NCBI RefSeq assembly: GCF_000949635.1
Contig: NZ_BAFN01000001.1
Location: 3,593,052 to 3,657,051, forward strand
Reading direction: 5' to 3'
Length of the DNA: 64,000 nt
Origin: Candidatus Brocadia sinica JPN1
Lineage (GTDB): Bacteria > Planctomycetota > Brocadiia > Brocadiales > Brocadiaceae
The notes below the pieces were generated by a model that saw nothing but the letters and a program-made list of their open reading frames with translations, was not told where the DNA came from and ran no database searches. A program made the position numbers and the translations under genes. Shown in pieces: positions 2,670 to 3,197 of the stretch (the stretch's first letter is position 1; the number at the start of each line of letters is the position of its first letter).

Positions 2670-3197
2670 ATGACAGAATTACTAAAGTTGTATTTTGTAC
2701 AAACTGGTTTTGGCTGGGTTATTATTGGCGCCATTATTGTAGTCACCGTAAGTTGTCTGGGTTCTGCAAAAGGCATTTTGATTGCTTCATCTCAAGCTGC
2801 AGGTATTTTATCGGAAAAGCCAGAATTATTTGGAAAACTGCTTGTACTCATGGCACTGCCTGGCACCCAGGGTTTTTACGGATTTATCTGTGCCATTATG
2901 ATTGCCCTGCGTACCGGAATTATTGTAGGAAATTTGAATATCCCTCCTGCCATTGGGGTTGCGATCCTCCTCATCGCTATAGCCACAAGCATTGTAGAAT
3001 ATATCACCGCACTTATTCAAGCTAAGGCTGCAACTGGAGCTATCAATCTTACAGGAAAACAACCGGAAGAAGGGGGCCGCGCCATCCTGATCCCTGCGCT
3101 TGTTGAAACGTACGCCGTTATTGCCTTATTGATTTCTATTTTATTGATCACCTGGCTGACCAAGGAAGGGGGATTTTCCTTCACTACACCAATATAA
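2670..3197 (+). CDS. ntpK: V-type ATP synthase subunit K (rotor ring, predicted Na+-binding)
   Basis: The 175-residue proteolipid has two helical hairpins (four membrane spans), as in E. hirae NtpK. The first hairpin carries LPGTQG and the second VETYA, so only the second has the ion-binding glutamate. Compared with the E. hirae ring, whose Na+ is held by L61, T64, Q65, Q110 and E139, the matching residues here are L63, T66, Q67, Q117 and E146: the full set. Seen: the residues. Known: their role in Na+ coordination. Inferred: this ATPase moves Na+ rather than H+. An overlapping frame at 2648-3025 is a shadow. An 88-base gap without a gene separates it from ntpE. Confidence 0.95.

Follow-up and report, generated by a model that had tools for sequence, protein, structure and literature searches.

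The genes at 314–5246 and 8455–12970 of the analysed window (64,000 nucleotides of Candidatus Brocadia sinica JPN1, contig NZ_BAFN01000001.1) probably encode a complete nine-subunit V/A-type ATPase of the Enterococcus hirae type, in which the ring of K subunits would bind Na+; we put the probability of this reading at roughly 60%. One Na+ per K subunit would lie between the helices, where E146, Q117, Q67, the T66 hydroxyl and the L63 backbone would hold it, and this ion would be carried past subunit I as the A3B3 head hydrolyses ATP. We infer the Na+ selectivity of the ring from the E. hirae structures. In its usual direction the enzyme would presumably use ATP to export Na+, and at a high Na+-motive force it could reverse and make ATP. 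The E. hirae V-ATPase is described as pumping Na+ in vivo and can make ATP from a Na+-motive force in vitro, at 3.2 Na+ per ATP (PMC12018189).

The host, which the original prediction described as anammox-like, is the anammox bacterium Ca. Brocadia sinica, and energy conservation in anammox bacteria has mostly been described in terms of protons. If the ring is of the Na+ type, the cell could pump Na+ with ATP, or make ATP from Na+, beside its proton machines; the enzyme could sit in either the cytoplasmic or the anammoxosome membrane.

Gene content and order

All nine V-ATPase subunit genes were found, G/H by a weak match. The features of the region are as follows.

314–628, + strand: peripheral stalk subunit of V-ATPase G/H type (Pfam PF03179, E 8e-4, under the gathering score)
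630–2651, + strand: subunit I (stator a), 673 residues (PF01496)
2670–3197, + strand: V-ATPase rotor subunit K, NtpK type (ORF with ATG start, 175 residues)
3286–3882, + strand: subunit E (PF01991)
3869–4933, + strand: subunit C (PF01992; start codon uncertain, relatives aligning from about residue 8–16)
4926–5246, + strand: subunit F, NtpG (PF01990)
5739–8376, + strand: insert of four genes between F and A, not ATPase
5739–6047, + strand: nucleotidyltransferase gene of this insert
6199–6687, + strand: Y1 transposase gene of this insert
6828–7850, + strand: ParA-like ATPase gene of this insert
7840–8376, + strand: gene of this insert for an unknown protein of 178 residues
8455–10215, + strand: catalytic subunit A (PF00006, PF16886, PF22919, PF02874; matches A-type and V-type A subunits in the PDB)
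10281–10652, + strand: 23S rRNA intervening-sequence-like protein between A and B, not ATPase (PF05635, E 3e-23)
10798–12198, + strand: subunit B (PF00006, PF22919, PF02874; TTG start in the ORF listing)
12347–12970, + strand: central stalk subunit D (PF01813, E 3.7e-56)

The order is G/H-I-K-E-C-F-(insert)-A-(insert)-B-D, and the G/H gene occupies the same place in those family relatives whose contigs cover that spot. The ntp operon of E. hirae has the same gene order, and the original prediction took this enterococcal order as a sign of Na+. The succession of genes is indeed the same, although the operon is not contiguous, being interrupted between F and A and between A and B. The order is also common to the relatives that were read and to the H+ V-type enzyme of Thermus; it is therefore not diagnostic for Na+, and we dropped it as evidence.

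The stator and catalytic subunits were compared with PDB sequences. The top match of subunit I is 8wci_P, a V-type sodium ATPase subunit I (E 2.4e-36), compared with 1e-18 for 5y5x_N, which we take to be the Thermus subunit. In the alignment to 8wci_P, subunit I has Arg where the E. hirae subunit has R573 and R629, presumably the two essential arginines; the Thermus row also has Arg at these places, so that the arginines are silent on the ion. Subunit A scores 774 bits against the archaeal A-type subunit 1vdz (presumably from Pyrococcus) and 739 bits against the sodium V-ATPase A. It is slightly nearer to the archaeal type, which counts against the main reading, and as a marker for Na+ it does not discriminate.

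In the window and in the related genome G008, the genes for ParA and its 178-residue partner separate F from A; in another related genome, G010, they adjoin A. We considered the pair as a possible V-ATPase accessory and rejected it, because ParA relatives occur in 19 of the 33 family genomes, many of them genomes in which a K-type V-ATPase was not found.

Ion ligands and predicted structure of subunit K

Subunit K consists of two hairpins, covered by two PF00137 (ATP-synt_C) stretches in the Pfam scan, and its ORF scores 127.6 bits against NCBIfam NF005124 (subunit K), for which the cut-off is 127. Its top match in a phmmer search of PDB sequences is 2bl2_A, the V-type sodium ATPase subunit K (E 7.3e-20), with 47 of the 143 aligned residues identical (33%). 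In this alignment L63, T66, Q67, Q117 and E146 (codons 2856–2858, 2865–2867, 2868–2870, 3018–3020 and 3105–3107) pair with L61, T64, Q65, Q110 and E139 of E. hirae NtpK, and the segments that carry them are free of gaps. The original prediction that K has the five NtpK ligands is thus borne out at all five positions, including T66 and Q117, a shift of either of which off the ligand columns would have spoken against it. In addition, Y70 pairs with Y68 of NtpK. In the E. hirae protein, E139 and Q110 are side-chain ligands of Na+, T64 binds via its hydroxyl and L61 via its backbone, Q65 is an additional ligand, and Y68 steadies the glutamate (PMC2359735).

Eukaryotic H+ proteolipids come next among the PDB matches, with E values higher than that of 2bl2 by 15 or more orders of magnitude. 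In alignments with rings of both ion types, the check proposed earlier, the ligands match those of 2bl2, and the eukaryotic H+ proteolipid c' (6m0r, 5tj5, 5vox) has Ile and Leu where K has T66 and Q67. In the double-hairpin K the ion site has one carboxylate, that of E146 in helix 4, and neither Asp nor Glu occurs in the 16-residue stretch of the second helix that was checked.

The predicted model of K, built with a 20-row alignment, has a mean pLDDT of 92.2 and long helices at residues 14–49, 51–82, 93–130 and 140–164, with T66 and Q67 on helix 2, Q117 on helix 3 and E146 on helix 4. Its closest structure is 2bl2 both in Foldseek (E 2.8e-7; runner-up 4.2e-5) and in VIA-align 2 (Z 21.1, rmsd 2.1 over 156; runner-up Z 18.4). 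The runners-up include eukaryotic H+ proteolipids, and the common fold of the predicted model with 2bl2 says nothing on which ion would be carried.

Conservation of the ligands

We read 36 K loci, the window's own included, from a search of 33 Brocadiaceae genomes and from a sample of the phylum Planctomycetota, in which 392 genomes were searched, 61 gave a K match, and the best 30 of the 61 were read. All 36 loci have T66 and Q67, 35 of the 36 have Q117, and E146 is present in each of the 35 loci that reach it. Position 63, which would bind through its backbone, is Leu (33 loci) or Met (3 loci). Every readable side-chain ligand is retained in 35 of the 36 loci, among relatives with as little as 34% identity to the window's K. 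The K copy L048 (apparently the same as L126) is the sole one read in which Q117 is replaced, by Lys; its frame also holds a TAG stop, so this copy may be a pseudogene or may have been wrongly assembled.

In the 20-row K alignment, which likewise extends down to 34% identity, T66, Q67, Q117 and E146 are four of the 22 invariant columns; the hypergeometric probability that at least four of the five ligands would be invariant by chance is 0.0009. Because the ligand set is nearly fixed throughout the subfamily, it is an inherited trait rather than a peculiarity of the B. sinica gene. A scan of named genomes gave 80 K sequences, comprising 74 LTQQE, four MTQQE, one cut short and one LTQKE; the patterns used contained ligand residues, and these counts are therefore not independent evidence. 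The named relatives include Ca. Brocadia, Ca. Scalindua sediminis, Ca. Anammoxibacter, Caldiserica, Ca. Cryosericum, Auribacterota, Hydrogenedentota and Saganbacteria.

Other rotors in the genome and the family

A search with PF00137 of the B. sinica genome (4,077,002 bases in 3 contigs) found three genes, namely K and two F-type c subunits. The separate proton-driven ATP synthase that had been expected elsewhere is represented by two F-type clusters, each with a ring whose ligand set is incomplete, as expected for H+. Gene labels in both clusters were read from translations, only c having been scanned with a profile. The first cluster has the order a, c, b, delta, alpha, gamma, beta, epsilon; its ring has Q32, E65, S66 and L67, with one ligand position missing. 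The chloroplast ring 22vl_M has the same Q and the same ESLTIY, and the ring of the first cluster is most simply read as a proton ring.

The second cluster has the order beta, epsilon, AtpI-like, a, c, b, alpha, gamma, which is that of N-ATPases, and we use this name for its type. Two ligand positions are missing from its ring, and the enzyme is possibly an N-ATPase that has switched from Na+ to H+.

L019:4619–4885 (G000:C1 near 508657): ring subunit c of the second, N-ATPase-like cluster, with L32 and I67

As both F-type rings are incomplete, K is the sole complete sodium rotor found in this genome.

Across the 33 family genomes there are 65 copies of single-hairpin rings: 42 Q-E-S-L, 14 L-E-S-I, five E-E-S-T and four E-E-S-V. 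The L-E-S-I ring occurs in 14 genomes, B. sinica included. These N-type rings are without two of the ligands, which suggests that ligands that are not needed get lost. The complete N-type ring (E32, E65, S66, T67) is found in five of the 33 genomes, at loci L196, L200, L202, L211 and L213 (genomes G020, G018, G009, G021 and G024); four of these five genomes also have an L-type V-ATPase.

The L-type V-ATPase is present in ten of the 33 genomes, nine of which were also identified by A. In our own alignment, the five Na+ positions of its rings (L056–L065, 10 genomes) read [AL]-[ST]-Q-Q-E, and these rings may bind Na+ too. One L-type ring queried against the PDB gave no match up to E 10. The L-type was not found in the B. 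sinica genome, where PF00137 gives K and the two F-type c genes and PF01496 gives only the subunit I of the window; the window's A subunit sits in a branch other than that of the L-type A.

Distribution and history

K is present in 13 of the 33 Brocadiaceae genomes, and a K-type V-ATPase, recognised by K or A, in 14. K was not found in eight of the 11 genomes of the same genus, so that the enzyme appears dispensable for the genus, which counts against the main reading. K-type and L-type V-ATPases occur together in only one of the 33 genomes (Fisher P 0.015), and the corresponding test of K-type against E-E-S-T rings gives P 0.049; as these values ignore kinship and incomplete assemblies, the mutual exclusion of the K-type with each of the other two is suggestive. 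Nine of the 33 genomes gave no K-type or L-type V-ATPase and no E-E-S-T ring, so that the searches did not find a complete sodium rotor in every member of the family.

A tree of A subunits was built from 66 rows (77 matches less 11 duplicates), which include only part of the A genes of the order. It contains a 15-row clade (100/98) made up of ten Brocadiaceae rows, Scalindua, Anammoxibacter and three further rows placed at phylum level, in Planctomycetota (L081, L083 and L084, the last being perhaps the order mate G150). The window groups with G010 and G008 (99/92), and Scalindua with Anammoxibacter (100/100), and the L-type rows are distant, on a very long branch. To explain the patchy spread, descent with loss is favoured over horizontal gain, because the three A rows from the same genus group together and the Brocadiaceae stand beside Scalindua and Anammoxibacter. 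The tree fits the presence of a K-type V-ATPase in the ancestor of these anammox families, followed by repeated loss, with apparent losses inflated by assembly gaps.

In G010, whose K is 97% identical to that of the window, the operon has been split by rearrangement (loci L021 and L193) into a membrane and stalk half, H-I-K-E-C-F, and a catalytic half, ParA-A-B-D, which are at least 17 kb apart on opposite strands and are both open. The nine V-ATPase genes have dN/dS of 0.08–0.45 against G010 and 0.06–0.19 against G008 (computed from position 3890 for subunit C), and their aligned parts contain no premature stops in either comparison. With dN/dS well under 1 and no stops, both halves of the operon look maintained.

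Possible sodium partners and alternative readings

The genome has three NQR2/RnfD genes. One belongs to an RNF cluster, in which RnfC scores 510.5 against an NCBIfam cut-off of 246 and RnfD 334.9 against 207. The other two are in RNF/NQR-like clusters, whose NqrF-like subunits score under the NqrF cut-off and whose B/D subunits, at 215.7 and 208.9, narrowly pass the RnfD subfamily cut-off of 207 and fall under those for NqrB; the subunit scores are thus ambiguous, and the ion of these two clusters is uncertain. All three clusters could be candidate makers of a Na+ gradient. One membrane pyrophosphatase, and two TrkH-family genes that lie away from the V-ATPase operon, could also supply or use ion gradients.

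It is conceivable, though we would not expect it, that anammox bacteria have an optional sodium circuit distinct from the anammoxosome's proton circuit, in which RNF/NQR-like pumps that set up a Na+ gradient at one membrane are combined with interchangeable Na+ rotors that replace one another across the Brocadiaceae. The rotor (here a K-type V-ATPase, in relatives an L-type one or an N-ATPase of Na+ type) would make ATP or rebuild the gradient. A narrower and slightly less likely idea is that the same Na+ ring works mainly in ATP synthesis, turning an RNF/NQR-like Na+ gradient at one membrane into ATP beside the anammoxosome proton circuit. The RNF and RNF/NQR-like clusters favour this, as does the capacity of the E. 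hirae enzyme for ATP synthesis in vitro (PMC12018189), and a Na+-motive force has been proposed for Kuenenia (PMC7275097); on the other hand, a typical F-type cluster is also present in the genome, and in vivo the E. hirae enzyme is considered to pump only, its Na+ gradient being too small (PMC12018189). Whether Brocadia uses a sodium-motive force is a question left open in print (PMC7275097), for which the K-type V-ATPase is a candidate enzyme. It offers one testable residue set, in a Brocadia kept in enrichment culture, and the census of 33 genomes shows which relatives have the enzyme, making the question approachable by comparing species.

We consider it improbable that H+ (or H3O+) is the ion which the ring transports in the living cell, with the ligands surviving as an inherited relic. 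Brocadia is known from fresh water, and a ligand set nearly fixed across the subfamily gives no sign of local adaptation; moreover, Na+-type rings are able to carry H+ when Na+ is absent (PMC2359735). Yet the side-chain ligands persist in distant relatives, K evolves under purifying selection in the close relatives that were compared, and two ligand positions have gone from the N-type rings of 14 family genomes, a sign that unneeded ligands tend to be lost. We give equally little credence to the operon being silent or decaying, for which one could cite its interruption here, where a transposase-bearing insert separates F from A and a foreign gene separates A from B, the location of V-ATPase genes at two loci in G010, and the bare expression of a different V-ATPase in Kuenenia (PMC2936114); the open reading frames and low dN/dS of all nine genes in both halves argue otherwise. 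An E. hirae-type enzyme with a Na+-binding ring remains the reading that we prefer.

Relation to known systems

The closest known system is the E. hirae Na+ V-ATPase (NtpK; 2bl2, 8wci), which the B. sinica enzyme resembles in the five ligands, the nearby tyrosine, the nearest fold, the subunit I arginines and the single carboxylate per four-helix K. It differs in that K is just 33% identical over 143 residues and in the inserts at F|A and A|B. NtpJ belongs to the TrkH family, and the two TrkH-family genes of B. sinica are not beside the operon. The K-type V-ATPases of Ca. Scalindua sediminis and Ca. Anammoxibacter share the A clade and the same ligands; their K subunits are 62 and 66% identical to that of the window, and they have no ParA between F and A. 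The N-ATPase, predicted to use Na+, is also a candidate Na+ rotor within the family (E-E-S-T in 5 of 33 genomes), although it is F-type and the B. sinica copy has L32 and I67.

Among the matches listed in our literature search, which covered few subscription papers, none dealt with Na+ ligands of an anammox V-ATPase. V-ATPases as such have been recorded in Ca. Bathyanammoxibiaceae (PMC9723696) and in B. sinica, the latter in a statement that is worded as "only" and leaves the ion unnamed (PMC7768721). This "only" does not agree with the Kuenenia V-ATPase or with our census of 33 genomes. Ca. Kuenenia stuttgartiensis has four ATPases, one of them V-type (PMC2936114). This V-ATPase-4, Borrelia-like and with subunit L, is like the present one a V-type ATPase of an anammox bacterium, but its cluster is described as being without C, F and G (PMC2936114), and the L-type A forms a separate branch. 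We infer that the L-type of the family is the Kuenenia type from the D-A-L motif and the four helices described there (PMC2936114). Kuenenia is also listed in a table of bacteria with V-ATPases, and the additional alignment file of the same paper may already class its V-ATPase by ligands (PMC2359735).
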